Positions 9,701 to 55,010 of a DNA stretch of 64,000 nt are shown piece by piece. The notes beneath the pieces were generated by a model, which worked only from the letters and a program-made list of their open reading frames with translations, was not told the origin of the DNA and did no database searches. Origin of the DNA: Auriscalpium vulgare (lineage: Eukaryota; Basidiomycota; Agaricomycetes; Russulales; Auriscalpiaceae); NCBI GenBank assembly GCA_019915015.1, contig JAHBBC010000008.1, positions 1,054,001 to 1,118,000 of the forward strand, in the 5' to 3' direction. The number at the start of each line of letters is the position of its first letter. The stretch's first letter is position 1. The position numbers and the translations under genes were made by a program.

Positions 9701-11908
9701 TACTTTGTCGTACGCTTTCTCCTGGTCGAGGCAGATGATGGCACCATCTTTCTCCGTGGCTTCTGCGAACTTGATCATTGCTCGCGATAGTCGTGTCTGG
9801 TCTGCGATCGATCTGCCGGGTACGAAACCCGCTTGGTCCTCGTGTAGCATATTGCTGATTGAGCTTGCCAGCTGCGTTGCGAGGGCTTTTGTTAGGAGCT
9901 TGTAATCCGTGTTCAGCAACGTGATAGGTCTGTAATTTGCTATATCTGTGCGGTCCTTTTTCTTATATATTGGGCACATCCAACCTAGGGTGAAGTCTGT
10001 CTTATCCGCGACACCCCATTTTTGTATATTTACGAAAACCGCCGTCATAGTGGCCAGGATATCAAAGGATGGTTTCTCCAGTTTTTCGGCGTCACGGTGA
10101 AGATCGTCTAGTTTCTTCCAGAGCTCATATGGAATTCCGTCCATTCCGGTCGCTGTCCCATTTTTTGCTGTTTTCAGAGCTTCCGCAACGTCGGCTGTGC
10201 TCACAGGGTTGTTTAGCGGGGATTCGTCTGGTTTGTTGAACTTCTGGTCGTCAGGTATGGAGTTTAAGACCTCCTCAAGTTTGGCCCTGTCTGCTAAGTG
10301 GATAGGTTTATCCAGGTCTTGAAGGGAGTTATGATAGTCCTCTGCGAGTTGCGCCATTCGCTTCGAGTCCGTCTCGTACTGCGGGGGGTTTGTGTCTGGC
10401 TTTTTAAGCCTCAGTGTTATGTCTCTCGGTGATTTCTCCTTGTTTATCTTAGTCCAATATTTGTTGACTGATTCTCCATCCTGCGTCCATTGGGCGTGTT
10501 TCACGTCTCTAGCTTTTTTGCTGTGCTTCCTTTCTAGGTATTCAATCTCTTTCTTGTGGCGGGCTTCTTCCTCTCTGAGGCTGGGGTCATTTGTGAACTC
10601 TCTGTGTCGTTGCAGGTTCGCCATTTCTTTGCGCAATTTGAGTATTCTTGCTTTCATTTTCCCCTTTGATAGCTTTGATCTTTCGCGTGCTATTTTGATG
10701 ATCTTCATCTTGAAATCCGACCAGAGGGTCTGTATCTCGCGGTCTTCGTCGTTTCCTATTTCCTGGATCACACTTATTTTCTCTTGCAGTGTCATTCCTA
10801 GGTCTACAACTGGCTGGATGACTTCTGGGTCGTTCAGGAGGAACAGCGGAAGGGTCCAGCGTCCGGGGCCGATTTCTGGCGCATCCTCGGGTGCGTATCT
10901 CACGGAGACCATTGCGTGGTCTGACAGGCCGGTGTGTATGATGCCCCATTCGAAGACATATTTTGCTTTTGATCTGGCTACATAGATTCTATCGAGTCTT
11001 GCGTGCATGTACTCCATCTGCTGGTTTGGCTGTCTATGTGTGTATAACTTCGTGTTGGGGTGCGTTTGTCTCCACGTGTCCTGGACGTCAAAGGCTTCTC
11101 TGAGTTCACGTAGGGCTTCCACCGCTCGCTCATCGTCGAAGCGGACGGGTGCTCTGTCGAGAGCATCTTCTACTATGTTGTGGTCCCCTAGGACGAAGTC
11201 CGGCTTCGCAAGTCCTAATCGACTCCATTCCTCAGTGATGGCTTCCCAGAAGGGCGGATGCTCGCTTGGGTCGTTCGGAGCGTACACATTTAGGAGAGTT
11301 AGTGATTGGCCTTCTCGCCACTTAATTACCATTGCTAGGGCCCTGCCCGGAATTATGACATGAGTTGTAATTTCGCCGGTGTTCACCATGCCCTTGTTTA
11401 CTACGAAGGCTACTCCCGCTGATCTCGTGGGGCGGTCCGGGTCCGCCGAGTTGTGTATTACATACGAGTTGCGATACATATCTCTCAGTGAGTTGACGTG
11501 GTCGTCAGTCAAGTGAGTCTCCTGTAGTCCTATGATTGCTGATTTGCTCGAGCGTATGAGATTGGCTAGTTCTGGCCATTTGTTAAGGTCACTGTGATTT
11601 ATTGTGGGTGATCTCCGTCCGTGCATATTAAAGGATGATACTTTAATGTTCGCATAGAACCTGCGGCCGGGGCTCTTACGCGCTCTTCTTCGCCTGCGCG
11701 GCGCGGACATCTCGTCCGTGGACATATCGTCCATTATATCCTGCCCTGTCAATGCAGGCCCGCCTCCGTACTCCCCGTCCGCATCATCTGGAGGGTCCTC
11801 GGCGGCTGGAGGGTCCCCTCCTCCGCGGACCGGGAGGGTCGAACCATTTGCCGGAAATAAGCCCGTGAGATGGTGTGGTGGATTGGTTGTAGGAGTCGCT
11901 CTACTCAT
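6791..11908 (-). CDS. LINE ORF2: endonuclease / reverse transcriptase / RNase H polyprotein
   Basis: This 1705-residue ORF is open throughout. Residues ~85-345 form an APE-like endonuclease (SSFNMHG; QETHL at ~129; LSDHAMV at ~328) that would nick the target DNA. The reverse transcriptase core follows, with the catalytic LFADDTVLY at ~830-838. Near 1160-1180 is a cysteine-rich motif (CACRDCARDRARGCENPHAC) common between RT and RNase H in basidiomycete LINEs. RNase H starts with IYTDGSC at ~1281 and has TDSKYVINGL and WVKGHSGIAGNENADE (~1393). Near 1529 a zinc-binding CPLCGD..HILTEC follows. The ATG at 11908 is the first in frame and follows a 5' flank rich in stops. All catalytic signatures are present, so the protein could be functional. 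Function as reverse transcriptase is firm; activity is inference. Confidence 0.96.
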   Translation of the reverse strand: MSRATPTTNPPHHLTGLFPANGSTLPVRGGGDPPAAEDPPDDADGEYGGGPALTGQDIMDDMSTDEMSAPRRRRRARKSPGRRFYANIKVSSFNMHGRRSPTINHSDLNKWPELANLIRSSKSAIIGLQETHLTDDHVNSLRDMYRNSYVIHNSADPDRPTRSAGVAFVVNKGMVNTGEITTHVIIPGRALAMVIKWREGQSLTLLNVYAPNDPSEHPPFWEAITEEWSRLGLAKPDFVLGDHNIVEDALDRAPVRFDDERAVEALRELREAFDVQDTWRQTHPNTKLYTHRQPNQQMEYMHARLDRIYVARSKAKYVFEWGIIHTGLSDHAMVSVRYAPEDAPEIGPGRWTLPLFLLNDPEVIQPVVDLGMTLQEKISVIQEIGNDEDREIQTLWSDFKMKIIKIARERSKLSKGKMKARILKLRKEMANLQRHREFTNDPSLREEEARHKKEIEYLERKHSKKARDVKHAQWTQDGESVNKYWTKINKEKSPRDITLRLKKPDTNPPQYETDSKRMAQLAEDYHNSLQDLDKPIHLADRAKLEEVLNSIPDDQKFNKPDESPLNNPVSTADVAEALKTAKNGTATGMDGIPYELWKKLDDLHRDAEKLEKPSFDILATMTAVFVNIQKWGVADKTDFTLGWMCPIYKKKDRTDIANYRPITLLNTDYKLLTKALATQLASSISNMLHEDQAGFVPGRSIADQTRLSRAMIKFAEATEKDGAIICLDQEKAYDKVAHEYLWAVLEKFNVPEAFIRTIKALYKTAYTTVAINGFLSYEGFRVRRGVRQGDPISCLLFDLAIEPLACLIRQSPNVAGFEILGVNSPVKVRLFADDTVLYLNRTDRFDVVIQITRQWCAVSGAKFNEEKTEIIPIGSQEHRKKVIEERKLTDQDTPLAISIKIAKDGHPVRSLGSWIGNRVDDATPWEPILDKITKDLERWAKGKPTLLAKRLIVQMVIGGRTQYLSKVQGMPTHIENTLIKKIREFVWEGRTSSPLAIDYLYLPREKGGIGLLDLKARNEAIHITWLKSYLDFTEKRPTWAFVTDLLVNKLKPKDAPDSTIINPYLQSWNVPLSGSRATTMLSKDMSEMLKTGRKYNTNFSALRLSNELKNQMPAWYHLATKSKRTMQTTKCLQETHGVVSVADLIKAMNRLTGLVNGRPHYHMRRCACRDCARDRARGCENPHACAAEARNRINLIHQKLNPSDPPPQNSLTLTRHRKRQNLQNLELDREVKFDPATTCKANLSECIRIFQSDDPESTSPPTRLTGPPPGINLPDERITIYTDGSCINNGKKNAQCGSGVWVEDDHELNQAFRVPGDAQSNQVGELVAIIITLQKVANYIPVRFKTDSKYVINGLTKFLPKYEDIGWIGIANAELFQVAAFLLRRRSALTTFQWVKGHSGIAGNENADEEAGRGALKDTHDELNLNIDDAYRLRGAKLAALTQAEAYKGIRERADPKRHPPRESTRVNLERARCAVEEFTGALETDAALWKNTYRPEIKRPVQQFLFKTIHNIYMVGRRWRHSMPERAPCPLCGDLDESMEHILTECPNSPVMDAIWRAAKELWPHGEDLWPQISFAAVIGCGSLEVPTPENEGQEERATRAAKSRLLRILISESAHLIWVLRCERVIQEKQITTREALARWTFKINQRLITDKILSSRKRRSKKARYSTTLTWTGTLRDERDLPDDWAVNPEVLVGIRPPRAPI

Positions 11909-12460
11909 CCCGCCCTACGACAATTAGGCGGGTGAGGGTCGCATAACTGGCGACCGCAGCGGACACATGCTAGGGGATCTTGCGAGGCGTTTCCGGGACG
12001 CGTCGCGAGAGAGCCCTTCGCTTCAGCCTCTCGGCACGGCTAGTCCTGGCCTAAAGAGGCCTCCGTTTTCCGACACGTTTCGAGTCTGTGAGGGACCCGC
12101 TTGCTTTCCTGTCCCGTTTCCGGTCAGTATATTTGGGCGCGCGGGTTTGGGTTTGTTTCTTCCTAGGCCAGGTCCCTCGTGGTTAGCCTAGTTTAGTTGT
12201 ACTTTGCTTCCAGTGTTTGCCGCGCAAGTCCCCGAAGAAGCGCGCGCTCGGAAGCTTTTTAGTGTAGACACCATCGGCTTAGATTGAATAGTAGATAGTA
12301 CAGGGTGATTTATCAAAAGGGAGCCCTAGTCGCGGGTAGTATGCGGGTATCGGTGATGGTATGTACATACATCTGCGGGTGCTCGTGCGAAGGGGAGGGG
12401 GAGGTCAGGGAGGCAGAGTATTACATAATGTGGCTCGTCTCATCGTATCCGTATGGGCTT
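11909..12460 (-). other. LINE inter-ORF spacer
   Basis: A ~550-bp gap between ORF1 stop and ORF2 start on the minus strand without a coherent ORF. Short GGCCTAGG-type inverted motifs are visible, but no internal promoter or reinitiation signal that I can identify. Confidence 0.6.
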
Positions 12461-24080: not shown

Positions 24081-27000
24081 TGGGGTGCGTGGGGTGGTTC
24101 GGCGGGAGACCGGCGGCGCTGAGCGGTCCGGTCACGTGATGGGCGAAAGCGAGCCCGTGGCGACTCGCGCGCGCGCGGCGCCTGCGTGCCCGAGGGCGTG
24201 CGCGTCGCTTCCCTGCCGAACTAACGAGCTACTCGCGCTGGCGGAACCCCGGCGACCCCCAAGACTCTCGAGGGGGAACAGGTACCGAGGCACCACCACA
24301 GAGCGCAGCTCACAGCCTCTCGGGACCTGCGGCCCCCGAGAGAACCCCACACAGAGCAAGCTCTGCTGGACGCTGCACATCCAGCGTTTCATTCAATGTT
24401 TTTTGCTCACCGGCTCGGATGGAACCTCTCTCATAGCCAATCTGTTGTCTCTCCACACTGGATCTTCGACCCTTGTCGTCCTTCAATCCTTGCAACCTCA
24501 CTTTTGCCATCCTCTCTGAAGTGCACCGGGTGCCGGTGAATATCGCAATCCTTCCACTTTGGTATCTGCTATTGGCCTGTCTACTCCAAAGGTAAATCTC
24601 CCTCAAGTCATGCTAGCGCCAGTGGTAGCCGCAGCTGCTCACTGCAAGCTCACTGTCACTCCGGCTAACCCGGACTGAGTCTATACTGGTGCTGCTGTGA
24701 CCCCTCGAATTCCGAGTGTACGATGTGTCCATGTCCACCAGCGGCCTGAGCATACAACGCCGCGTTCTACATGCTTTACCTGTTATCTACTCCGTGTTCG
24801 AGGGTGTCTTTGATTCTCTTCGAGCTGCAGACTCAGTCGCACTTGCCTGCTCACCCGCTCCCGCTTCCGGGTCCCCTCCTCTATTTCCGTGCCATTGACA
24901 CCATGCTCCCGTCTATTATTCTCCGGAATCCGCGCTCTCCCTCCAGCTCTATGTGGAGGATGACCGTTCTTGGCAGGTCTCTACTCTGCCTCGAAAGCTG
25001 GTCGTCCTGTCGATTTCATCGTGTTATTCTGCGTGTCTTAATGGCTACTGTACTCGTCGTGCAACGCGTTCGCTGCCACTTAAAGCTGCGATCCCGTATT
25101 GGGTTCTGTAAGCCGTTTCGGGTCGACTGAATTATCCGCGCATGTCGTCTCCGCCTTCTTCTTGACCTGGCTGGTCTACATATCTGGCCCCAACTCCGTC
25201 TGCCTATGATACTAGATCTGCAGCGCTGCGTGCGCGTTACCTGCCCTCTGTGCGCTTTTGTCTCTCGCTGGTGCACCCGGGCCTGAGTCTGTCGTGCCCG
25301 AGAGGTTGTCTTCGGTCGCCGCTTCTCCGAGTCCTCATCCGCGTGTGCCGGTAGTTGCTTCACATCAATTATCACTCGCATGCTAGGCCACATACTCGCC
25401 CTCACACCGTCCGTCAACTGTACCTGCGGGCTTCGCTGTCTACGGCCGTATAGTAATGCTCTTCCTAACCCGCTGTCGTCTCCGTATTTTCCTGTGCGTG
25501 CGCCATCTTCCCTGGCTTTCAGCCCCGCGTCCTCATATCATGCTACTATAGCATTGCTCCTGCACTCTCGTCACCGCCTGGTGGGTTAACTACCCTTCGC
25601 TGGAGCGACGCTCGCGGGCTTCCCGATAGTCTCCTGCTGTCTCACTGGAGCGCCGCTCCCGACCTAAGTCCTACTCTGTCGTTCTCGTGCCAGCTGTGCC
25701 AATGGTCTCGCGCTCTAGCCATTCCTGAGTTTATCTTACTGCAGCTCCTGAGCCGTTCGCTATAGCGCCTCATTCTCCGGTAGGCTCCGCGGCCGTCCCG
25801 TTTGATCATCGTTCCTGAGCTAAACACTACGGCGCCCTCGCCCGTGTGCTATCCCGTCCCCCGGCATCGCATTTTCCAGCTATGTTGTTACTAACTATTC
25901 TACTGAAGCATCTCTTCTGAGCGAGGTCTTCCAGTGCTCTTTCACTCGCGCGCTACGCGGCGCTAGTCACTAAAGGCGCCGCGCCGGTTGTAGCAACCTG
26001 CGGGCCTCGCGGTAGACTGCCCCCGTTCCAATGGAGCACTGCTCATGCGCTGGACGCTACTTCGCCGTCGCTCATGTGCAAGACAGATCATCGGCCTCGC
26101 GTCTCAGCTACTATCGTGGCTGCTACACCTGTAGTTTGAAGTTTCTGAGCAAATCTCCTCGCGCGTTCGCTCGTGTTATCTTTCTCGTGTGCCCGAGTCG
26201 TCCGTGTACCAGCCCCTTGCAGTGGCCTCGCATTCAAGCCACTCGTGACAGCCTCGCGTGCTGCCAGCGGTCACTACCAAGACCTAGCTTCGTGGTCGCT
26301 TCTCTCCGTTCTGGAGACGAGCCCCTGAGTTAGACCCGTCAGAGTCATTGCTCCTCTACTAGTTCCTCCTGGTGGCCGCGCCTTGCTTTGCGGTAGGATA
26401 CCGCGGTCTTCCGACTGCTAGAGCATTGCTCCTGATATTGACACTATACCCGGGGCCTTCGCTCGTGCGCTCTAGTCGCCCATCAGCCAGGGTTCCCCGA
26501 GCTGACCACCGTGCCCTCACTCGCGTGCTAGCCCGTCTGTCTACACTGCGTCCTAGCGGTTACCGCGTCCGTCTCTCCGACGCATATCCCGCGCGCTAGA
26601 CACTGTAGTGCCATCGCTCATGTGCAAGCCACTGATGGTGGCCTCGCGTGCTATCACTGACAATGCCAGAGTCGTGTGCTATCCACTCGTGGTGGCGTCT
26701 CGTGCGAGCCACTCGTGGTGGCCTCGCGTGCTATTCACCACTCCGTGACCTAGCCCATGGTTGACCTCCGTAGTACCACTGGAACCGCGCTCTTCGGTAG
26801 CTCCTGAGCTAGACACCTCCGTGCCATCGCTCCTCTGCGAGCCACTCCCCTGTGGTCTCGCTTGCTAGCTGTCGTGACCCCCCGATCTAGTCTCGTGTGC
26901 TAGTCACCACTCCGTGACCTAGCCCGTGGTTGACCTCCGTCGTCCCCCTGGAGCCGCACTCTTCGGCAGCTCCTGCGCTAGACACCTCCGTGTCGTCACT

Positions 27001-27120
27001 CCTCTGCGATCCACTCCTGGTGGCCTCGCGTGCTAGCCACTCGTGGTGGTTTCGCGTGCGAGCCACTGATGATGGCCTCGCGTGTGCTATCCACTCTTGG
27101 TGGCCTCGCATGCTAGTCAC
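24081..27120. repeat. degenerate GC-rich repetitive DNA
   Basis: Scattered, decaying copies of short motifs dominate from ~25.5 kb: ACTGGAGC.(N)..GCTC, and CACTCGTGGTGGCCTCGCGTG with GCTAGCCACT (clearest at 26640-27110). Frames are closed and there is no recognisable retroelement protein. It reads like an old minisatellite or a heavily mutated repeat. 24081-25500 holds nothing I can name. Confidence 0.55.
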
Positions 27121-27137
27121 TATAGTGACCTAGCCTT

Positions 27138-27735
27138 GTGGTAGGCACTCGCCGTCCCACTGGAGCTTCGCTCCTGAGTCTCTGCGTCTCTGCGCATCGA
27201 CCAACTCTGCGCATTCTGCGCGACTCTGCGCACTCTGCGCGACGCCTCTGCGCCTCGTGGTAGGCACTCGCCGTCCCACTGGAGCTTCGCTCCTGGGTCT
27301 CTGCGTCTCTGCGCATCGACCAACTCGTGGTAGGCACTCGCCGTCCCACTGGAGCTTCGCTCCTGGGTCTCTGCGTCTCTGCGCATCGACCAACTCGTGG
27401 TAGGCACTCGCCGTCCCACTGGAGCTTCGCTCCTAGGTCTCTGCGTCTCTGCGCATCGACCGACTCTGCGCACGCTGCGCGACGCCTCTGCGCCTCGTGG
27501 TAGGCACTCGCCGTCCCACTAGAGCTTCGCTCCCGAGTCTCTGCGTCTCTGCGCATCAACTCTGCGCCTCTGCGCTGACCCTGCGTCTCTGCGCCGACCC
27601 TGCGCCTCTGCGCCGACCCTGCGACTCTGCGCCGATCCTGCGCCTCTGCGCCGATCCTGCGCCTCTGCGCCGACTCGTTGCGCCTCTGTGCCGACTCGTT
27701 GCGCCTCTGCGCCGACTCGTTGCGCCTCTGCGCGA
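27138..27735. repeat. tandem minisatellite
   Basis: Five copies of a unit beginning GTGGTAGGCACTCGCCGTCC start at 27138, 27257, 27327, 27397 and 27497. The central spacing is exactly 70 bp; the outer ones are longer by insertion of CTCTGCGC-rich text. From ~27560 it passes into an ~18-bp repeat (CTGCGCCTCTGCGCCGAC). Copies are nearly identical, so the array is young compared with its surroundings. Confidence 0.9.
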
Positions 27736-29074
27736 TTCTGCTCCGCATCTGCGAACCCAGCTGCAAGCTTGTCGACCTCGCCTGCCAGCTACGTCGCCCT
27801 CAGCCGAGATAGATTCTATAGAGCCGCCAGTGTAGCCCACTATGCGCCCGTTCCTACTGCCGTCGAATGTATGTGCTTTAAGCAAGCTCGGATTAATGTA
27901 TGCGCTCGACCGGAGCCTCTAAGCCGTCAACGATCTCCCAGAGTGGTCCAGAGGACGAGTAGATGTGCCCGCAATCGTAGACAACCCCAGATATACCAAC
28001 GTCACGTTACGTCGTCATGTCGAAGTTCTGTACGCCAGAAGCGTCGCGCCAGCTGGAGTAGCCTCTCCCGAGCTGCTAGCCTAGCCAAGTACACTCTAGT
28101 GTCCGAGTCGAGCATCTGCACCCCAGGCAATCTCCTTGGCGTGTCCGAGTCCGTGTATGCGTCGACCTGAACCGCTAGATCGTCGCAGAGCGTCCAGAGT
28201 GTGCTCCAGCGTTCGAGTCGTCCATGCCGTCGCCGAGATTTAGTCTCCAGATCGAGTCTCTAGCCATAAGGTACGTCTCCTGCTATCTTAGCTGCGTTCC
28301 AGCGGCGGCCTTTCGTACCTGCAGACAACATACATCAGTCGTTTGCTCACCTGTATCCTCCCTCATGCTCTGCTTCTGCTTGGCTCCCGCAATCCACTCG
28401 CCTCCGACACCTTCCTGCGCCACCATCGAGACCTCTCGTCCCAACTGCTGCCTGCCACTGCGTCTCCATCCCGGGCTCTCGACTCTCCAGTAAATTGTCT
28501 CCTGCTGTGATCGCTTATACCAGCTGCGCTCGTCCGATCGTTCTCGCCGGCGTCCAGCATAGTCAATGGCCTGTCAACGAAGCTCTCGCCTAGCGGCCTG
28601 ACATAGCAACGGTTGCCGGATCTTGCCTGCAGCCTCCAGTTGTTGTCGCCGTGTCGCCTAGTAGAGTAAACTCGAAAAACTCAGTGCGAGAGAGCGTCGG
28701 GGAACGATGTGGTCGAGGTCAAAGCACTCGACCTTTCCCGACGCGCCGCGATTTCCTTATTCGCGCTCTTGCGCTCTTGCGTCATCGCATCACGTCGCTG
28801 CCTCGCGACGTCACGTGTCTTAGCTAGCCCTCGCAGAGGCTGCGTCTCGCAAGCTCGACTAAGCCTCTTCATCAGATATCCAGCCTGTAGCTGCCTTATT
28901 TAGGTTATACGACAGGATATCCTCACTAATCTACTAAGCTGGACCTCCCGCATGTTCGTGATAACTTTCAGGACATATCACCTACGTGGATTGCGAAATG
29001 CCCCATAATTATGACGGGGAGAGAAGCATCATAATCGCTTATATTCGCTATAATTTTTTCTCACTTTTGCCGAT
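27736..29074. other. intergenic, no supported gene
   Basis: No domain, exon chain or clear repeat is recognised. Several ORFs on both strands overlap and none is convincing. Confidence 0.5.
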
Positions 29075-44282: not shown

Positions 44283-45254
44283 TAGCCTTCAGCACGCTTG
44301 GTTTGGATTCGATTGATACGCACCCTATTGTCTTTACGGCTGTCCCTCCCTCTCTCATTGAATATGATTTTGAGTTTGTTTAGGAAATCATCCTTTCTGT
44401 CGACCGATGCACGTCCGGGCGGACTTGTTTGAAGGCAAACGTTAGAACCGTGTTTCCGGCGAGTCTCTGCTTGTCAGCCCGCTATCACTCGGCGCCAGCT
44501 TTCTTAACGACCACGGTCTGTGCGGAGCCCCCTTTCAGCGTCCCAGTAATCACAGAGCTTCTCTGGCTGCTCGCACTCGTTCTCTCTAGTAAGATTTTTC
44601 AAGATTTTTCATCCCCAATAGCGCCTCCAGGTGAGCATGCTGGCCCGATCCAGGGCGACCATGCCGTGAACGGTTCAGCTTGCGGTGTCCGAGAACCTTG
44701 TACGAGGGATTCGCACTCGAAAAGCTCCTTCGAGACACTATGTCTCGTATTCGCGTTGCGTTCGAGACTGGCAGCGCTGCGGCTATCCCATGAACTCCGA
44801 CGACGCTGTTTCTGCACCCAAGTATAGCTGAGACAGAGCTGCAAAAACACATGTGTTGCTTTGGAGACTGGCAGCGCGAGATGGCCAGGCTTGTTGCGAT
44901 TTTCAGTGAGTCCCGGAGACGCTGCTGTATATCTCCGAGTCGAGATCTATAGCTAAGGCAGAATACCCAGTCTTCCTGTGCGCTAACAACAAGTGACGCG
45001 CGCGCTGCTGACGGGAAGCAAACAGGCATGGTGGCACACCATCCTCAGCCCGCTCGGTCAAGCACTGTACCGCGCACATCATGGCGCGTGACATATGCTC
45101 TGAAAATAAGGGGCTACATCCCTGCGGGCGGATTTGAGATGCGTCGCGCTTCTAGTCGGTTGACGACGCGACGACTGGGTTCAGACGGGTGTAACGTGAC
45201 CGGACGACTTGGCGGCTGGCAGCTATGGGTTGTCTCACCGCCACCACCGAAAGT
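44283..45254. other. intergenic, no supported gene
   Basis: 3' flank of K6 followed by short ORFs on both strands without domains. A minus-strand ORF at 45029-44586 (147 codons) has no recognisable feature. Confidence 0.45.
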
Positions 45255-45260
45255 TATAAA
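45255..45260 (+). promoter_or_regulatory. TATA box with downstream pyrimidine-rich tract
   Basis: TATAAA sits in the context AAGTTATAAAGAG. It is followed at 45265-45350 by a strongly C/T-rich stretch (CCTTTCCCCCACTTTCCCC) and then ATG codons at 45363 and 45388. This is the usual layout of a strongly expressed basidiomycete promoter and points into the tandem array. Confidence 0.6.
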
Positions 45261-45387
45261 GAGCCCCCCACTCCAGCCTCTTTCCTCCATCGGCTCTCGC
45301 CTTTCCCCCACTTTCCCCCCACTTTCCCCTTACTTCACTAGCTCGCTAGCCCTCCTCACTCTATGTGCGTCGTCGCTGTCCTCTTCT

Positions 45388-46390
45388 ATGAGCGCGGCTG
45401 ACCCCGCTCATGCGCCGACAGTCCTCGCCGGTACGCTGTCAGCCCGCTGGCTCTGACGCTGCACTGATGGTTCTCTTACAGGTCCCGGCGGACGGTAGGT
45501 CGTCTCTCTGTCTCTTCCATTGTGTGCTGACTCCATTCGTGATATCATCGACTCCGGTATGTCCTAAATCTCCCACCGCATCGCCGTACTGACCGCTGCT
45601 GTGCCAGGTCGTCGGTGTGGCTCAAGGTGCGTCGTTTCCTCCTCTGTTCCGCACTGACGGTTTTCTTACAGGTCCAGGCAAACGGTAAGTGTCTCTCCGT
45701 CTCTTCCATTGTGTGCTGACTCCATTCGTGATATCATCGACTCCGGTATGTCCTAAATCTCCCACCGCATCGCCGTACTGACAGCTGCTGTGCCAGGTCG
45801 TCGGTGTGACTCAAGGTGCGTCGTTTCCTCCTCTGGTCCGCACTGACGGTTTTCTTACAGGTCGAGGAGGTAGGTCGTCTCTCTGTCTCTTCCATTATAT
45901 GCTAACTCCATTCGTGGCGCTATCGACTACGGTATGTCATCGACCTCTTACTTACCGCGGTCCTATACTGACAGCTGCGCGAACAGGTCGTCGGTGTGGC
46001 TCAAGGTGCGTCATCTCCTCCTCTGTTCCGCACTGACTATTTTCTTACAGGTCCCGGCAAACGGTAGGTCGTCTCTCCGTCTCTTCCATTGTGTGCTAAC
46101 TCCATTCGTGACTGCATCGTCTCTGGTATGTCACCGACATCTTACTTACTGCGATCCTATACTGACAGCTGCGCGAACAGGTTGTCGGTGTGGCTCAAGG
46201 TGCGTCGTTCCCTCTTCTGTTCCGCACTGACGTTCTTTTACAGGTCGAGGACGGTAGGTCGTCTCTCCGTCTCTTCCATTGTGTGCTAACTCCATTCGTG
46301 GCGCTATCGACTACGGTATGTAATCGACCTCTTACTTACCGCGGTCCTATACTGACAGCTGCGCGAACAGGTCGTCGGTGTGGCTTAAGG
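45388..46390 (+). other. candidate gene built of microexons (hypothetical)
   Basis: From ATG 45388 a 43-nt first exon (MSAADPAHAPTVLA) ends at a GTACGC donor (45431). An acceptor TCTCTTACAG lies at 45481. Beyond it alternate two kinds of tiny exon-like segments, each bounded by acceptor and donor signals. B segments start at 45482, 45672, 45861, 46051, 46244 (9-13 nt, GTCCCGGCAAACG-like). A segments start at 45608, 45797, 45987, 46181, 46371 (19 nt, GTCGTCGGTGTGGCTCAAG). Joining them in order keeps an open frame of ~65 codons until a TAA in the fifth A segment, because B segments differ in length. The product would be short, Arg/Ser-rich, with Cys. This could be chance: the units are repeats and the intron from the B donor lacks a nearer AG. 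No known family. RNA evidence is needed to call it a gene. Confidence 0.3.
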
Positions 46391-46790
46391 TGCGTCATCT
46401 CTTCCTCTGTTCCGCACTGACTATTTTCTTACAGGTCCAGGCAAACGGTAAGTGTGTCACTGTCTCTTCCATTGTGTGCTAACTCCATTCGTGACTGCAT
46501 CGTCTCTGGTATGTCACCGACATCTTACTTACTGCGATCCTATACTGACAGCTGCGCGAACAGGTTGTCGGCGTGGCTTAAGGTGCGTCATTCCCTCCTC
46601 TGGTCCGCACTGACGGTTCTCTTACAGGTCCCGGGAAACGGTAGGTCGTCGCTCTGTCTCTTCCATTGTGTGCTAACTCCATACGTGGCGCTATCGACTA
46701 CGGTATGTCATCGACCTCTTACTTACCGCGGTCCTACACTGACAGCTGCGCGAACAGGTCGTCGATGTGGCTCAAGGTGCGTCGTTTCTT
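45470..46790 (+). repeat. seven tandem ~190-bp units carrying splice signals
   Basis: The A segment GTCGTCGGTGTGGCTCAAG recurs at 45608, 45797, 45987, 46181, 46371, 46564 and 46758 (spacing 189-194). The B segment after TTACAG recurs at 45482, 45672, 45861, 46051, 46244, 46435 and 46628. Each unit keeps GTATGTC, a CTGAC branch-like site, GCGCGAACAG, GTGCGTC, a second CTGAC and TTCTTACAG. Units 3, 5, 7 and units 4, 6 resemble each other more, giving a ~384-bp higher-order period. Confidence 0.93.
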
Positions 46791-46944
46791 CTGGTCTGGG
46801 GTAGCGTAGGCTAGTATATAGCGCATGCCAACCGCGGGTTTGTCGTAGTAGGCTCCACGCGTGCTCCAGAGTTACCAAGATTGAAAGACTCTTCGTCTCA
46901 TGTATTTGTTCAAGTCATAAGTGAGGCGGTCTTTCCTGGCGAAA

Positions 46945-47000
46945 CGAGTCAGAGCGTAAGCGTCACCACAACGGAAATTCGAGGACAGCAGCGAGCGAAC
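46945..47000. repeat. orphan copy of the kinase-family 5' flank
   Basis: GTAAGCGTCACCACAACGGAA followed by GAGGACAGCAGCGAGCGA matches the block just upstream of K1, K3 and K5 (GTAAGYGTCGCCACAGC.., GAGAACAACAGCGAG). No kinase exon is found beside it. It is a remnant of another family copy or a recombination scar. Confidence 0.6.
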
Positions 47001-48418
47001 GCGCCTCCGCACGCCCAATCGCAGATCGGATCGGAGCAAAGGCGGCACACGGGATTCGTGGCCGCATCAGCATGAGCTGTTTGTATGCAGGGACGTGTGC
47101 GTCTGTACATCTGGCAGCGTCCCTACAGGCTTCCTGTCGCGCCATACGATGAGAGCAGCGACGCGCCATTGGCCGCGTACGCCGCGCCTCAGCACGCAAT
47201 ATGCAACCAAATCAACTTGGCGGCTGGGAAGCCTGCGAAAGGAAACCCTGTCAGTATGTCGCGCCCGTCGCGGCGAAGCTCTGAGCTCATACCTCACGCA
47301 AGGTATGCGGATCACGTTCAAGTGAGATGCGCGAGGAACTCGTCTGTGCGATCGCGCTGCGTGGCAAATCAGCGATATGAGCGCATACATTTGGAGTCGG
47401 GGACGCGCTCATGGAAACGGGTCGGGATTGGAAGACGGAGTGGTGGCTCCAGGCTCCTTGTTTTGAAGGTGTGTCTCAGGCCACATTGACGACGCGCAGG
47501 TTGCGGGTGATGCGTGGACAAGCCTTGCATCTGGCACCGCATACGTGTATACCGGAGTATAATGCAACTACGTTAGCAATGTTCCTTCACTGCGCGGAAA
47601 GCAGACGCACCTTATGCTCAGTACGAGACCATCCAAGCTGAAGCCGCACGCCCCGCTCCGCGAGAGCATTGTTCTGGCTAAATGCGCGCGAAAGACAGCG
47701 GAAAGACAGCAAGCACGCATTCAGTCGGACGCAGCGCAACACGGACGAGGGCAACGCACCACGATATCCAGGAGCGCAGCACAGCACGTCCTTCCGCCTC
47801 TACCCCCGGCCCTCATCAGAGCTGCGTTGAGCGGCACCGCGCCGCAGCGCCCTGCACTAACCATGGTTGCGCTGCCTTCCGAAGAACAGGCCCGCGCACC
47901 ACTGCGGGTGGCGGCGACAGACGTGCGGCGCCGGAACGACGGGCTTGGTGGTATGACCCCTAGCTCGTCAAGCTGTTTCTCCCCCGTGTTCGAGAGCGAG
48001 AGATGATGTGACATCGGCATCCTATAGAGTTCACAGCGCAAACGTTGGACGCGCAATTGGCAGGGCGACTCGGAGTTTGGGAGAGGCGTACCGTCCCGTT
48101 CCTAAGCAATTGCTCGCGTACAGCGCAAGCCGCTCCGGCGAGAGCGTTCAGGACATGCACTCCTCGGAGCTGCGGTTGTGTGAGGATGAATTGCCTGCCG
48201 GTCAGCCGTGCCGCATGAACAACAGGATATGTAGCGTTTCCGACACTCACATGACTCCATGCCCAGTCTCTTCGGCTTCAGCGGGACATTTTCAGATCTT
48301 GAAGCTGATTCGACGAGGAGGCGGCCAGAGGGCAACAGGTGTTGAGCAGGCTGTTGCGCTGTCGGGTGTTCAAGGCCGCTTTCCCACCCTCGGCGCGCGT
48401 CCAGACCTCGCCCCGCGT
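47001..48418. other. intergenic, no supported gene
   Basis: Many short overlapping ORFs exist on both strands, none with a domain or conserved partner in the window. I see nothing to annotate. Confidence 0.45.
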
Positions 48419-48996
48419 GTTACGATTCCTACGAATCGTTGCTTATGTCATCCATATACAGCGTTTTTTCGACCCCATGCAACGATCATCTGTGTCGCCT
48501 TTTTTGGAAATTCGCTCCCACGCTATGTCAACTCACGACTTTACCCCTCCTCATTTGCTCCACACAATATACACAAATGATTGCCTAAATACACTGATTA
48601 CTAGGCCATGCAACATATACAGAAGTTGCAGAACAGTGATGTTGCGACAACTGAGATGCACCAGACAACACAGGCAGAAATACGATGATGTCACTCCGGG
48701 GTTTTAAATTACAATTAGAGCCCGAAATGATGTCATCACTCTTGATTTCACAACAACCACCTCAGGTGCAGCTGCACACCCAACTTATGTAAATTTTAAT
48801 GCCCTCCAGTGAACAGTATTGCCCACCATGACTTAAATTTGGTACCAGGGCCACTCCCAGTCGCGTTTTGGTGTCTAGTACATAGTGTCTCAAGACTATT
48901 ATTTATGTATATATTTGATTATGTAACCAGAAACCCCCTCAGAGCGGAATCGTACTGCCGCGCTACGCGTCGGCCCACTCCCAGCAAGTTGATCTG
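48419..48996 (-). mobile_element. SINE-like element, short copy
   Basis: The ends match those of the element at 52.6-55.0 kb: left TTACGATTCCTACGAATCGT and a following TTGCTTATGT, right GGAATCGTACTGCC..CGGCCCACTCCCAGCAAG. On the minus strand the right end reads as a tRNA-like head (GGGAGTGGGCCG as A-box-like, GTACGATTCC as B-box-like). The inside is AT-rich and differs from the partner. Class is inferred from the termini. Confidence 0.5.
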
Positions 48997-49515
48997 ATCC
49001 CAGCGAACAGCCTACGCTCAATCTCTGCTCGTCTCTCTCAGCTCATGCCGATATGTAGCGCCAACGTCCTTTCTCCCACCCGCCCATGGCCATCGAACCA
49101 TCGTCCCTCCATACCCCCTCGCCCAAAGCGAATTCACGGATCGCAGAGTAGATCGGAGAGGCTGCTGGCGGCTTCTGGAGCTCCATCGACACGTCGACGC
49201 ACGGTGATTCTTCCCGCTGAAGAATTGAGGGCCGACCGTTAGCGCGAAGGTAAGTATGTGCTGCGCCTCAGGCTGGCTGCCGCCGACGTGGGTTGAGGAC
49301 GGGCAGCGCATGTCCATGGTCGTGAGTGCCGCTTGGGCCTAGCCTCGGGGTTCATGGCACGCGGCTGAAGCTGGGATTACAGCGGCCCTCCTTTCTCATG
49401 ACATGCGCGCTGGCACTGCGGGCTTGCGTCCCTCGACTCTCGAGGCGCTGGTCCCGCGGTGATGTGGTGCGTGCGCCCGCCGAGTGGGCTGGAGGGTGCG
49501 GATTGCGGAGCAGTG
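48997..49515. other. intergenic, no supported gene
   Basis: No feature is recognised beyond short ORFs. Confidence 0.4.
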
Positions 49516-49665
49516 CTGTGCTGCGCTGAAGATGAGCACGCTGCGCGCACGTCTTGTTGGCGGGAAGGATTCGGCGTGTGCAGGCCTAGGTGGGTTCGGC
49601 ACGTCTGCCGCACGGCGGGGTATGTCGTCTCGCAGACCCCATGCCCGGACTTTGTTGTTCGTTGC
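49516..49665 (+). pseudogene. kinase-like relic K7 (C-terminal fragment)
   Basis: The plus strand reads LRARLVGGKDS and, after a frame shift, RWVRHVCRTAGYVVSQTP. These match the conserved kinase-family tail LRSRLVGRKDS..RWIRHVYRTTGYIITRTP. Nothing of the catalytic domain is left. It shows that the family once extended beyond 44 kb. Confidence 0.78.
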
Positions 49666-51019
49666 AAGGAATACAATTCGCGGCCTAGTGGTACTGCACT
49701 GCTTGTCCGCATTACTGTGCGTGAATAAAGGCATGCTCTATGAAAGTGGGTGTTATAACCTAGCCCGTTCAGTAAGTCGGTGCGCGCGCACAAAGTGCCG
49801 CGCATACATCCATCTATAATGGCCGCTGCAGACCCGGTCCCCTAACGTAGTGCGCAGACGAAAGCCACAGATGCGACGCGCTTTGACGATCTGTCCCTCC
49901 ATGTTCAGGTTTTCAGCGCGCCCAAAAGCCCAGCAGCTGCAGCCCTCCACTCCACTCCGACACCGCCTGCGCCGGCTCTCGATATCGCCGCCACGCCCCT
50001 GGCCTGCGCACCGCGAGCGCAGGGACCGCGCACACGCTGATCTGGCCGCCCAGCCGGCGAGCAACACCTGCGACCGCGCCTTCAGCAAGCACGTACTGCG
50101 GCCTGGTGACTCCGGTGTCGAATTGTGGGATGGCGCTGGACTGCGAGTGAGCCATTGAGGCAGGCGGCCGACCGACGACAGCTACTCACGGCGTCGCTGC
50201 GCACACGCGCGTCGTGGTGTGAGTTATGAGTTGGATGCGAAGGTTCGTGGAATTGGCTTCAAGGCGGCGGATCCAGGGAATGTGGTGGGGTAGCTGGGGT
50301 CTGGGTCTGTGGTAGGTGGGGGTCTTTATGCGGTATGTATGGACTCAGTATCTCGACTCAGCTTCAATGGAGCATATCTTCAGAATCATAAGTACGGTCT
50401 TCTTGTATGCGCGCTGGCTGGGCTCACGATGGCTGGAGGTGGATTACTCTTGTATAATGGTGCAAGATGATGGCTCTCATGCCTGCCGCGTACCTGGATT
50501 AGCACGACGCCCGGGCAAAAGAACCATGAGCACACACCAGTATGATTTAGACTGCCGCATCGTATGTCGCTGTGGCGATCCTCAAAGCATTGTCTGCACG
50601 AACAGTCGATGTCATACGCCGCAGCTCGCTGGGAGGACAGAAGACGCACCCTTAAGTTTTGACCCGCCCGTCGACGGCCATAAGACTTTGCCGCGCACCA
50701 GCAAAGAAGATAGCCGACTGCTTGTGGAAAGGTTGATAAGCGTTCCGTGGCAACAACATCGTCGCCAATGGTGGTCGGAAGGTGACGGCGGCTCCGAGCG
50801 TGGTAACATGGCTAGTCACGGTAAATCAGGGGAGGAGACCGACGCCGATACCACTTCATACCAGAGTAGTCCTTGATCAGTTTGACGAGCGCGTAGTCGC
50901 GGGAAAATTAGCTCGATTGTGGTCCGAAAGACGTAGAACTGATAGTAAAAAAGGAGTGAAGCAATGAAGTAGTGTAAGAGCATATATGTTGTCAGTTACG
51001 GAGACGAGGTGGGCAATGC
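49666..51019. other. intergenic, one weak ORF
   Basis: A plus-strand ORF with its first ATG at 50328 (182 codons to 50876) starts MRYVWTQYLDSASMEHIF and has a hydrophobic segment (FRIISTVFLYARWL) and several Cys residues. No homology is recognised and coding status is unsure. The rest holds nothing. Confidence 0.3.
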
Positions 51020-52365
51020 TCAGAACGGTTGCTGGGCCAGCAGCTCGCTCACCTTCACCAAGAGCTGGTCCGCGCTCTTCAGCTCTGCTGCAAAGTAACC
51101 CTTCCACCCTCCCGGCCCCGACACGCCCCTTGCCTTCACGACCGCGGCAACCCTTTCGTACGCTGCGGGATCTTCTTCCCGCCCGGCGTAGCACACCAAG
51201 TCGCGTCTCCTGGTGTAGATGAGGAAAGGGCTGTCCGCGATAGAAACCTGAATCTTCACGATGACGCTTTTCGGGTACGAGACAGGGCGTGTCCCAGAGG
51301 GTAAACGCACGGTAGGAGTCGGATGGCGAGGGAGTATGCTGGCCACTGGTGCGACGGAGTACATCGGGGTGAGTGTCACGGTGTTATCGGAGGTGAATCC
51401 CTGGCACGACGGCCTGTGTGTTTGCCAGTGCGATCCTATCAATTGGTTCGTCAGAAGGCAATAGATGTAGCAAACATTGACACGCACTCTGGCATTCCGA
51501 CGAGCAATACAGAACGGAATGGCAGCGCGAGCACTGCTTCATTGACCCCTGCGTCTTGCTGCACGCCGCGCACTCCCTGGTCTCGCACGGAGCTGTCTCG
51601 CCCGCCCTCGCGCGCTGCCACTTGCGCACGACCGCAGCGATCTCCGGCCCATACGACGCATAGATCTCCAAAAAGTGTCTCCCATCCGCATCCCGAATGG
51701 CCAGGTCCGCGCCGGACTCCATGAGCATGTCCACGGTCTTGGCGGAGTGGCACATCATCGCGCCCCACATCGCAGTCCGGCCGTAGATGTCCTGGTGGTT
51801 GGGTGCAGCGCCGTGCGCGAGGAGGATGCTGATGAGAGCGGTTTTGGTAGAGGAAATCATGCAAGCAGTGAAGCGGCAGATGTCCGCGACATCGGGTGGG
51901 CAGCCGTGCGTAAGGAGGTATTTGAGTGTCTCGACATGGAAGCCGGATCCGGGCGGGCCATCCGCAATCCGCTGGCTGCCTATGACTACGATAGTGGCGT
52001 ATCCAAGCTGAAAGGGCGTCGTAGAGTCATCGAGGCGTGGTGCAGAGCCGTTTTCGACAGCCTGTTGAAAACGGTGAGAGGGGCGAGGAGCCAGACAACG
52101 GTCAACGCACTTTGGTGACCTCAGAGACCAATCCCATGTAGCACGCCAACGCAAAAAGCTCCATCCTGTTGGGATTTAATCGTGCTGCCTCTGCACAGTG
52201 CATATCGTCAGGTAGCGTAGTGTTGTGGCAGTAGACGGACATACGCGCATTATACAAGTCCCGCAATTCGGAGCCGCCATGATCCGTGCTCAAAAATCCT
52301 TCAGTGGACAGCAATGTTCGCATGCGAGGTGTGACCTGGAGGCCTGCATCGTCTGCCGTCGACAT
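51020..52365 (-). CDS. ankyrin-repeat protein with C-terminal MYND zinc finger
   Basis: Three exons, 52365-52111, 52061-51488 and 51435-51020, give 414 residues. Introns are 49 and 52 nt (donors GTGCGTTGACC and GTGCGTGTC; acceptors TCAACAG and TTGATAG). Ankyrin repeats occupy ~120-215 (ETLKYLLTHGCPPDVADI, ALISILLAHGAAPNHQD, TVDMLMESGADLAIRD). A complete MYND finger follows, CAACSKTQGSMKQCSRC then YCSSECQRSHW..H..SC, which needs the second intron to be spliced; this supports the model. MYND domains bind proline-rich peptides, so a scaffold or regulatory role is likely. The C-terminal ~140 residues have no assigned domain. The ATG at 52365 starts MSTADDAGLQV. The gene has no damage and unlike its neighbours is not duplicated here. 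Confidence 0.9.
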
Positions 52366-52599
52366 GATGAGAGTCGGGATGATGGCGGTGACCGAGTCAC
52401 AGCGGAAGAGACAGAGCCACGTGAGACTGACCGTTATCCCGAACATCCCCATGTGGCCCGATCACCTCGAGCTCTTGAGAATATGCTTGCAAGTCGCCAT
52501 AAGAATCGTGGCGAATCTACATAGCGAGGAAGAGCTGCAACGCCGTGGAAGCGCTGGCAGGACCAGCGTCTATCAGCAGCAGCCTAATTTCCTCACGCA
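52366..52599. other. short intergenic stretch
   Basis: Promoter side of the ankyrin/MYND gene. No specific element recognised. Confidence 0.4.
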
Positions 52600-53004
52600 A
52601 TTACGATTCCCTTGAATCGTTTCTTATGTAAGCACCAGTCGCCGTTTTTGGACCCCCATGCAACTTTCATCTTCCCCCCCATATATAGCTATTTGTTCAC
52701 ACAGTCCAATTTCCCTAGCAAACACAATTCCCCCTCTTCGCACTTCAAAAGACTCCCGTTTCAGACAGTATTTCGCATTTTTTAAGCTAACTAGAATAGA
52801 TATGCACATAATTTCAGTGGCTCTGAAGTCAGAAGAAAATGCTCCATAATTGCCATTTCCGGTAAATAATTCCCACGCTTGATCCCATGACGTCAGTCTC
52901 GGATGCACAGCACAAGTGCACTCGGAAACTACGTCATTCCTCTCTACTTCGGCTACTGTACTACCCGGACTCGATTACCAATCTTTTCAAAACTGTTTAT
53001 AACA

Positions 53005-53071
53005 GGAATTGAACTGCAAACCTTCAAGTTTAGAAGACTATACAGTGCAGATACCACTAGACTACAGAGCC
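53005..53071 (-). tRNA. tRNA-like sequence (pseudo-tRNA / SINE head)
   Basis: On the minus strand GGCTCTGTAGTCTAGTGG gives a perfect A box (TAGTCTAGTGG, TRGYNNARNNG). Forty bases later GTTCAATTCC is a good B box. The loop-like CTTCTAA between would present anticodon TCT (Arg). The acceptor stem is not complementary at the 3' side and the anticodon stem has mismatches, so a functional tRNA is unlikely. It is best read as the pol III promoter of a SINE. Confidence 0.6.
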
Positions 53072-53249
53072 ATTGACAATATATACATCAATACATATGT
53101 TATAGACTATTCCTCTAGGCTTTCAAAGCATCTAAGTCTGTCACCTCCCCATTCGTGCATCCAGAAATCATGTCATGTCTGAGCTCTAGCCAAAGTACTA
53201 CGCGGAGTGAAGTACATATAAGTGTTTCTATCAGAAATTGAACTGCAGA

Positions 53250-53324
53250 CCATGCCCCTGATCAATACCTGGCGGCCTGTGCAAGCATGCGAGTGAGGCC
53301 GGCCAGGTATTAATTGGGGCATGG
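53250..53324. repeat. 75-bp inverted repeat (hairpin)
   Basis: The arms CCATGCCCC..AATACCTGG.GGCCT and AGGCC.GCCAGGTATT..GGGGCATGG pair with few mismatches around a ~17-base loop (GTGCAAGCATGCGAGTG). It lies inside the SINE-like composite next to a B-box-like motif. Confidence 0.8.
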
Positions 53325-55010
53325 TTGAGTCCATGTTTCACGGAGCAATGCACAATGTTGCTGAGCAAGTTCATGCACAGCGATGATGGGCACCCACATG
53401 TAGTATAGTGGTAATGTATCAGATAGTACCAGATCCCTTGAGCGCTGAAGAGGGTACTGCAATGTGTGCGAGCGAGTGCCAGGCTCCCGAAGATGATCAG
53501 AGCGCGTCTCCGATGAGAGTAGGGAGGTGTGCAATCAGAGGTGATGGTTGGAATGCGTGATCAGTCAGAGAATCATCAACGAGGGGTTGGAGGAGAGGAT
53601 GTGTGTTGCAAGCAACTGGGAACGACTGCACACTGCACTGTGTGCACAATCATCGAAATATGGTCAGAACAACAGAGAGGAGTGCAGACAACAACACTGA
53701 ACCATTGCACTCATGTGACTAGTCAGAAGAGCAAGGGCGATGGTTGGAAGACTAGGATGAGTAGTGCGACACGAGCGAGGGTGCAATCACTGCGGGACGA
53801 GAGCAATGCAACTGTAATAGCCGGTGTCGCAAGACAGTCAGAGCAACGTAGAGCTCGCACAACGGCTAATGGGATGACGATGGGACAAGATGAGACCCAG
53901 GAGAATAATAAGCTGACTGTGAGACAACTGTGTCAGTTGTGTCACTGACATGTTGGATATCCTACTTATATTGTTCTCTTCCTACTCTTGTGATACCTTT
54001 GAATACCTTTGATTGCAACCCCACAGTGTTACTGGTTCCTTAGTCTGTATTTGTATTTACGCACTGCGGTTGCTTACTTAAAATCATCCTTCTTGCCTTA
54101 CACCCTCACCCAGCGTACTTCATCGAGACACTCCGAAAGTACACATGAGGGATTAGGCATAGGACCCAGCTTCCTCGAGAGACAATGCCTGTCTCTCGTA
54201 CCACTCACACATCCCGTCGTTCTGAAAGGACGACTCCCGGACAGTTACATGTTGCCTTGCCCGGACGATGTTGGAATATCACGTGCATGTCGAGCTCAAC
54301 GCCGCACCGGCATCTTCCGGGTACTGTACAGTACATACGAACCTTATTCCGTGGACATGTAGCTAGCTCTTTTGCTACGATATCCCTTACAGATTACGCC
54401 CAGCTTCGTATACGCTACCCGGCGCTAATTCGAATATCCTTCGTTGTCCCTCATCGTCCTTGTGCGTGGAGCCGATCCTCAACAGACGACATGTCGCGTC
54501 ACTGAATAGGTGACCCCAACGCCCCCAGTTGCTCACTTGGACGGCTCTACGTTCCATCCAATCTCACGACATCTGTGACAAGTGGTTGGAACTCTGGTCC
54601 AAGCTTGCGAGCATTTGGAGAGACTAATCGGATGGTCGGAACACTGCTGTGCGATGCTGCGACTCTTGCGACTCTGAAATTGTGTGAATGTTGACTTGTC
54701 AAAAGTGCGAAAATTGGCGAATGATTGCCTCGTAGCGCAGAGCGAGGAGTATCAGGGCTACCCATGATGCCACAGATTGAACTCTAGATATGACTGAGAC
54801 AGGTCAATCTTTCACTTGCATATCTTCAACACCATTCACTATTCTCAGTACATGCAGACTCTCTACTGCATTTCAAACTCACATCAAGTAGAGGTTGTAG
54901 CCGCAGCAAATGGATACTAACATTAACTACATAATGATATTCACAAACCATTAGAAATGGAATCGTACCTGCCGTGCTTAGCACCGGCCCACTACCAGCA
55001 AGTGGCCTCA

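Follow-up and report, generated by a model that had tools for sequence, protein, structure and literature searches.

Tandemly repeated intron-bearing units in Auriscalpium vulgare: a possible orphan family of multi-intron RNA genes

Introduction

What kind of gene, if any, is built from a short unit that is repeated head to tail and carries its own splice signals? The question is raised by a locus of the Russulales fungus Auriscalpium vulgare, situated in a 64,000-nucleotide (nt) stretch of DNA that is referred to here as the window (G000:C8:1054001-1118000, part of a 51.6-Mb genome in 96 contigs); this locus and its relatives are named by contig as C8, C42, C14 and C6. An earlier note on this DNA described a TATA box and a pyrimidine tract, followed by units of ~190 bp from which exons of 19 and 9-13 nt would be joined, and took the whole for a possible microexon gene with an open frame. 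This observation was largely sound, and its exon map was probably partly wrong. We propose that the locus belongs to a small and fast-evolving orphan family of multi-intron, probably non-coding RNA genes transcribed by RNA polymerase II, a proposal to which we would give about half of our belief. The evidence is sequence-based: there is the array itself, it has paralogues with which it shares a conserved promoter, a conserved first intron and a conserved 3' block, its splice signals are invariant, and no sign of coding bias is seen.

Structure of the array and its introns

Direct reading confirms the TATA box and the pyrimidine tract, and the array of ~190-bp units is recovered by Tandem Repeats Finder at 45461-46788 on the forward strand, with a period of 194 bp (6.9 copies) and also with one of 384 bp (3.5 copies), that is, with alternating unit types. 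By likeness, the units (W1 to W7) fall into the groups W3/W5/W7, W4/W6 and W1/W2, showing that amplification proceeded partly by dimers. The donors, CTRAC branch sites and CAG acceptors described previously are all present inside the units. Each unit has three donor-like sites (GTAGGT or GTAAGT; GTATGT; GTGCGT) and three branch-like sites (CTAAC or CTGAC; CTGAC; CTGAC) against two CAG/GT acceptors, which leaves one donor and one branch-like site with no acceptor of their own, and unit seven lacks the branch site and acceptor of the last intron.

The exon map was chosen by calibration on 136.8 kb of array-free sequence from this genome, made up of six stretches of 10 kb together with portions of the window and of L010 and L011, the two flanking loci; in this sample, GTRNGT donors were paired with CTRAY and YAG. 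Such donor-acceptor pairs were in excess at 50-59 nt (39 observed against 4.7 expected) and slightly so at 40-49 nt (10 against 4.4), lay at or below chance at 60-129 nt (32 against 39, with 17 against 16.8 at 100-129 nt) and showed a mild excess at 130-199 nt (53 against 35). GTGCGT was the commonest donor; GTAGGT showed no excess, with one likely use among the 54 pairs listed. Because the genome's own introns peak sharply at 50-59 nt and GTAGGT is not a favoured donor, the most likely introns are those of 44-55 nt, namely X (51 nt), Y2 (51 or 55 nt) and Z (44 or 45 nt), and the likely exons measure 75, 19, 74, 19, 71, 19, 75, 19, 72, 19, 74, 19 and 75 nt, plus a first and a last exon. Introns of 112-117 nt from GTAGGT or GTAAGT, as needed for exons of 9-13 nt, are less likely and may be alternative choices. 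The segments of the earlier map were measured as 13, 19, 13, 19, 9, 19, 13, 19, 10, 19, 13, 19 and 13 nt. Its 19-nt microexon stands, and is the only microexon on the likelier map, where the internal exons are of 19 and 71-75 nt. The 9-13-nt segments extend for another 61-62 nt to the GTATGT donor, giving the exons of 71-75 nt, and are probably no separate exons.

The clustering of such introns was set against chance over 45250-46900, with GTRNGY as donor and 500 order-1 shuffles. The stretch holds 15 candidate introns of 40-60 nt in sense and none in antisense, compared with a mean of 0.25 and a maximum of 6 in the shuffles, and 590 other placements of the same size within the window hold at most three each. 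Fourteen of the fifteen are the modelled introns; the other, an extra leader intron at 45365-45421, was rejected, its donor and acceptor being absent in the two related loci on C14 (C14a and C14b).

Conservation of the splice signals and of an exonic core

A mask of donor, branch and acceptor positions was defined on unit W3, with a gap counted as a difference, and seven units were compared for Y2 and its surroundings and six for Z and the 13-nt segment. None of the 28 splice positions of the two likely introns is variable, against 69 of the 166 others (Fisher 2e-6), and when the mask is slid round the unit (six units) only one of the 194 circular shifts does as well, which is the true register. 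Removal of the most divergent segment, the interior of Y2, leaves 0/28 against 42/125 (p 8e-5). When the GTAGGT donor and its branch site are added to the mask, three variable positions appear, still with 1/194 shifts; this third donor by itself varies at two of its six positions. The earlier claim that splice elements are better conserved is thus borne out in each unit by two donors, two branch sites and two acceptors, whereas the third donor departs from it. The pattern is suggestive of splice signals protected by selection.

A 30-nt core of the long exon (CTCTTCCATTGNRTGCTAACTCCATTCGTG) is also conserved: in the seven window units 4 of its 30 positions vary, whereas outside it 65 of the 136 remaining non-splice positions do (Fisher 4e-4). 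Scanned across the genome with up to 3 mismatches, it has 17 matches, all within the family (seven in C8, seven in C42, two in C14, one in C6), and its reversed control has none. The pattern ACGGTAGGTCNTTTCTTC was also tried and discarded: at up to 2 mismatches it has 33 genome matches, 4 of them away from the family loci, a number that does not exceed the 9 of its reversed control.

A family of paralogous loci

The locus on C42 is an identical copy (1651 bases at 100%), in a contig region (L009, G000:C42:65600-75500) that matches window 45071-50892 at 99.98% and is preceded by an inverted 51813-54186; it may stem from recent duplication, represent a haplotype or be an effect of the assembly. 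The breakpoint between C42 and the window falls just upstream of the array promoter. C14 carries two diverged relatives, the head-to-head C14a and C14b, which have promoter, first intron and 3' block in common. In C14a, promoter and first intron are followed by one longer exon and two cassettes without intron Z between them, and in C14b the promoter is followed by a leader that contains 4.3 copies of a 34-nt repeat, after which 23-nt units form an array. C6 holds a 3' fragment only, with no promoter match and no intact intron. Unit number and kind thus differ between loci, while promoter, first intron and 3' block are conserved.

Alignment of C8, C14a and C14b gives identical columns at 62/202 in a more distal upstream stretch and at 37/52 in the leader part GTCGTC..GCGCC, besides those listed in Table 1, and the 66-nt 3' block is identical at 54/66 columns in four loci. 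The first intron is conserved between loci at least as well as the promoter (41/51 against 88/130 columns), which is odd for an intron interior. Judged by eye, the leader end resembles the 62-nt exon part of the unit and may be distantly derived from the same sequence.

The array of C14b (L010:6677-7528, G000:C14) has its first 25 units spaced exactly 23 nt. Their core ACGGTAGGT shows 5 differences in 225 cells against 90 in 350 at the other 14 positions, and among the 23 circular placements of a 9-nt block no other is so conserved. This core, which lies behind a TTTCTTC-like tract, holds the donor GTAGGT and an AG/GT junction, the spacer is variable, and the array contains 32 GGTARG motifs. 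Under the strict intron rule, C14a has two sense candidates and one antisense, C14b has three (one of them in the leader repeats) and C6 has none.

Short-chain-dehydrogenase-like genes, so named by sequence reading (L010:8150-9416 and L011:5114-6372), adjoin family members on C14 (C14b) and C6; they are paralogous, with 84.6% DNA identity, and their relative orientation differs. The possibility of a mobile element was weighed on the extent of homology and on the neighbouring genes, and was rejected: homology between loci extends into promoter and flank, and C6 lies beside a paralogue of the gene that flanks C14b, so that segmental duplication fits better. Whole-genome DNA searches and the 30-nt pattern, whose counts are lower bounds, found no member of the family outside C8, C42, C14 and C6.

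Coding potential and RNA families

On the likelier exon map, no frame runs through the array. When the likely exons of the window copy are joined, the longest stop-to-stop frame has 72 codons, and the corresponding frames have 63 codons in C14a and 90 in C14b. Coding bias was assessed in a 45-nt part of the long exon from 12 copies, as differences from the consensus, the cells of which are not independent. The frame that is open in the 12 aligned copies has 56 amino-acid-changing and 16 silent differences at a neutral ratio of 2.55, and so no sign of coding bias is seen in the open frame of this part. The second frame has 34 against 29 (expected 2.94), but contains stop codons (9 stop-related differences), and the third has 57 against 19 (expected 2.82). 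The open frame reported in the earlier note does exist, and one of 91 amino acids spans all 14 of its junctions; it says little, however, since none of the three frames meets a stop in the commonest 19-nt segment. No protein match at E up to 10 was obtained for this frame (38 candidates) or for an alignment of three candidate peptides (12 candidates), searches that never-annotated gene models escape. With no frame through the array on the likelier map, no coding bias and no peptide match, a protein-coding microexon gene is unsupported, though an orphan or fast-evolving peptide, improbable as it is, may be encoded. On the earlier map, with exons of 13, 19 and 9 or 10 nt, only the single 9-nt exon is divisible by three.

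The window holds no Rfam family at gathering score (families outside Rfam would escape), one weak antisense match reaching E 0.84 and 15.3 bits against a cut-off of 45. No tRNA was found in the window at cut-off, and a search of a phage collection gave no match.

A model for the locus

In the proposed model, the window copy would be transcribed from its TATA promoter, 14 short introns (44-55 nt) would be spliced out, and seven exons of 71-75 nt would alternate with 19-nt exons in an RNA of ~0.9-1 kb, assuming a start near 45278 and an end near 46900-46950. On this view, a cassette holding two complete introns was copied head to tail, in part as dimers of 384 bp, and so gave rise to the array. 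Growth by tandem duplication of units with complete splice signals, as had been suggested previously, is supported, and selection apparently retains the signals. Selection would hold every copy spliceable because unspliced repeats would spoil the RNA, and the tandem repetition of the 30-nt exonic core may let this RNA work as a platform for multivalent binding.

Several observations weigh against this model. When five stretches were folded, none proved more stable than shuffled sequence (z -0.02 to 2.26), so that the product has no support from RNA structure. The binding platform would depend on a single 30-nt core, and over 12 family copies 14 of the 30 positions of this core vary, with the two copies in C14b contributing most. 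Applied at 100-130 nt, the same intron rule also yields 15 pairs in the array (the seven long introns of the earlier map, six in which a Y2 donor is paired with the Z acceptor that follows, and two more), and the strict rule passes only two of the three modelled introns in C14a and two of the four in C14b. Moreover, although the choice of introns came from the calibration, the splice mask was set after the unit alignment had been inspected, and the units are recent duplicates in which invariance is not counted over independent lineages; for these reasons the invariance of the splice signals does not amount to proof.

Alternative explanations

The array could be a non-functional minisatellite, in which the intron-bearing stretch of a decayed, once-spliced gene was multiplied by recent unequal crossing-over and the signals are alike because the copies are young. 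The alternating dimers show recent amplification, three loci show three different kinds of internal repetition, there is no coding constraint, and some C14 introns have imperfect signals. We nevertheless regard this as doubtful, since changes are absent from the splice positions and common elsewhere, with the true register alone among the circular shifts, promoter and first intron are conserved between loci, and it is the promoterless C6 fragment that has no intact intron. A further view, which we consider unlikely, is that of a non-coding family in which spliceability itself would be the target of selection, so that arrays of introns (as in C8) or of donor/acceptor-like AG/GT cores (as in C14b) would multiply freely, the reading frame and the interior of the introns would change, and the splice signals would stay. 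The loci might then serve as decoys for the spliceosome or U1, or enhance their own expression by way of splicing.

Among the readings that invoke a protein, a small orphan peptide gene would place a short frame in the first long exon and treat the remainder of the array as an overgrown 3' untranslated region. The window copy has a candidate frame of 43 amino acids from the ATG at 45410, and C14a and C14b keep related frames open through their first long exon, with pieces such as ADG, LCL and LTP common to the three loci; the 63- and 90-codon frames of C14a and C14b also speak for it. However, the 56 amino-acid-changing against 16 silent differences in that frame (neutral ratio 2.55), the empty protein searches, the different placing of the start codons and the two earlier ATGs of the window copy, which open short frames, make this rather improbable. 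The protein-coding gene of 19- and 9-13-nt exons with frame-changing splice isoforms can draw on its 91-amino-acid frame, on the match of its third donor to GTRNGT in 11 of 12 family copies, on seven long introns that obey the donor-branch-acceptor rule, and on at least one other place in the genome where GTAGGT is probably used as a donor. It is improbable, because that frame is nearly automatic and unmatched, in the calibration sample pairs at 60-129 nt do not exceed chance and GTAGGT is not enriched as a donor, the third donor is variable, and each long intron contains a GTATGT donor at the usual distance. The locus could also host small RNAs in its tandem introns, in the manner of the mammalian SNORD116. 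Tandem exon-intron units without coding constraint and the strong conservation of intron X would be consistent with this, but there is little room in introns of 44-55 nt, stable folds are not seen, and the window yields no Rfam match beyond the weak antisense one; this we think very improbable.

Comparison with known systems

Tandemly repeated 81-base exons are reportedly a feature of Schistosoma, going by the title of a paper by Davis in 1988. Micro-exon genes of flatworms, in the portions of the literature drawn on here, are protein-coding, with exons that are mostly multiples of three and long introns (PMC10526429, PMC7653826). With both, the present locus shares many very short exons and internal repetition; unlike the micro-exon genes, it has exons of 19 and 71-75 nt, tiny introns and no coding constraint that could be found. 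In the SNORD116/IPW-A locus of mammals, an excerpt of PMC4742849 describes repeated non-coding host exons, with introns that carry C/D small nucleolar RNAs (snoRNAs). The array resembles that locus in its repeated exon-intron units within a long non-coding RNA, here an RNA predicted from sequence, and differs from it in having no recognised RNA family, introns of 44-55 nt and a fungal host. The C/D or H/ACA elements that characterise the introns of a snoRNA host were not found, with no Rfam match at gathering score.

Closer to fungi, the consulted part of PMC4974935 reports intron gain by tandem duplication in potato and, in fission yeasts, multiple tandem 24-bp AGGT segments with introns across them. 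As in the AGGT model of intron gain, AG/GT stands at acceptor junctions and a duplicated intron-exon structure yields a new intron: each of the 14 introns has a CAG/GT acceptor and the units are in tandem, although strictly it was intron-holding units that were copied. The 23-nt units of C14b, with donor and AG/GT in their core, recall this model, and the array that they form recalls the 24-bp repeats as that part of the paper describes them. The cases treated there are introns gained in protein genes; here about two introns are predicted in each unit, 14 in total, and the locus has no conserved frame that could be detected.

Hypoxylaceae stwintrons, as far as the excerpt of PMC8469720 goes, are similarly fungal and repeated, and GTAGGT..GTATGT..CAG has the look of an intron within an intron. 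A stwintron was rejected, however, as removal of GTATGT..CAG joins ..CG or ..TG to GTCGTC or GTTGTC and restores no outer donor, branch site or nearby AG. Fungal introner-like elements, in the extract of PMC4457414, are likewise similar introns in many copies within one genome; this candidate was set aside because the copies found here are confined to one family and mostly in tandem, and are not scattered in unrelated genes. The growth of tandem exon-intron units, which the earlier note had considered novel, therefore has precedents as a principle in schistosome exons, in IPW-A/SNORD116 and in potato intron gain. No fungal array of this kind was found among the literature matches listed, by which its absence is not proven.

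Features of the window

The features of the window copy are collected in Table 1.

Table 1. Predicted features of the window copy (positions in the window; column counts refer to alignments of C8, C14a and C14b)
Feature	Position	Strand	Remarks
Core promoter block, TTTGAGA to TATAAAG	45133-45261	+	88/130 columns identical
TATA box TATAAA	45255-45260	+	Direct reading; in all three promoter-bearing loci
Pyrimidine-rich presumed start region	45261-45345	+	Direct reading; TATA-to-leader 58/108 columns identical
Leader end of exon 1	45363-45430	+	12-codon frame from its first ATG
First intron X, 51 nt, GTACGC..CTGAT..CAG	45431-45481	+	41/51 columns identical; length fits genome intron peak
Long exon, unit 1, 75 nt	45482-45556	+	Map chosen by genome calibration
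Other long exons	45672-45745, 45861-45931, 46051-46125, 46244-46315, 46435-46508, 46628-46702	+
Intron Y2, unit 1, 51 nt, GTATGT..CTGAC..CAG	45557-45607	+	0/14 splice positions variable in 7 units
Other Y2 introns, 51 or 55 nt	45746-45796, 45932-45986, 46126-46180, 46316-46370, 46509-46563, 46703-46757	+
19-nt microexon, unit 1	45608-45626	+	5/19 positions variable
Other 19-nt microexons	45797-45815, 45987-46005, 46181-46199, 46371-46389, 46564-46582	+
19-nt segment, copy seven	46758-46776	+	Opens the terminal exon
Intron Z, unit 1, GTGCGT..CAG	45627-45671	+	0/14 splice positions variable in 6 units
30-nt exonic core, unit 1	45512-45541	+	Conserved
Other copies of the 30-nt core	45701-45730, 45887-45916, 46081-46110, 46271-46300, 46464-46493, 46658-46687	+
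Start of terminal exon and 3' block	46758-46852	+	66-nt 3' block at 46787-46852

Elsewhere in the window, a frame of 1707 amino acids at 6791-11914 on the reverse strand has endonuclease, reverse transcriptase and RNase H domains and represents a non-LTR (long terminal repeat) retroelement, and several other tandem repeats with periods of 9-169 bp cluster at 26672-27753. A gene for an ankyrin and MYND-finger protein at 51384-52175 on the reverse strand belongs to a multi-member family in Auriscalpium vulgare, its frame matching other such proteins of this multi-copy family at up to 91% over 74% of the query.

Significance

If transcribed and spliced as predicted, this family would provide a compact natural experiment on intron multiplication, with one conserved promoter preceding, in three paralogues of one genome, seven tandem units, two cassettes or a 23-nt AG/GT array. 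It would allow splice-site selection to be tested where there is no protein to protect, and likewise the idea of tandem duplication as an ordinary route to intron-dense RNA genes in fungi.
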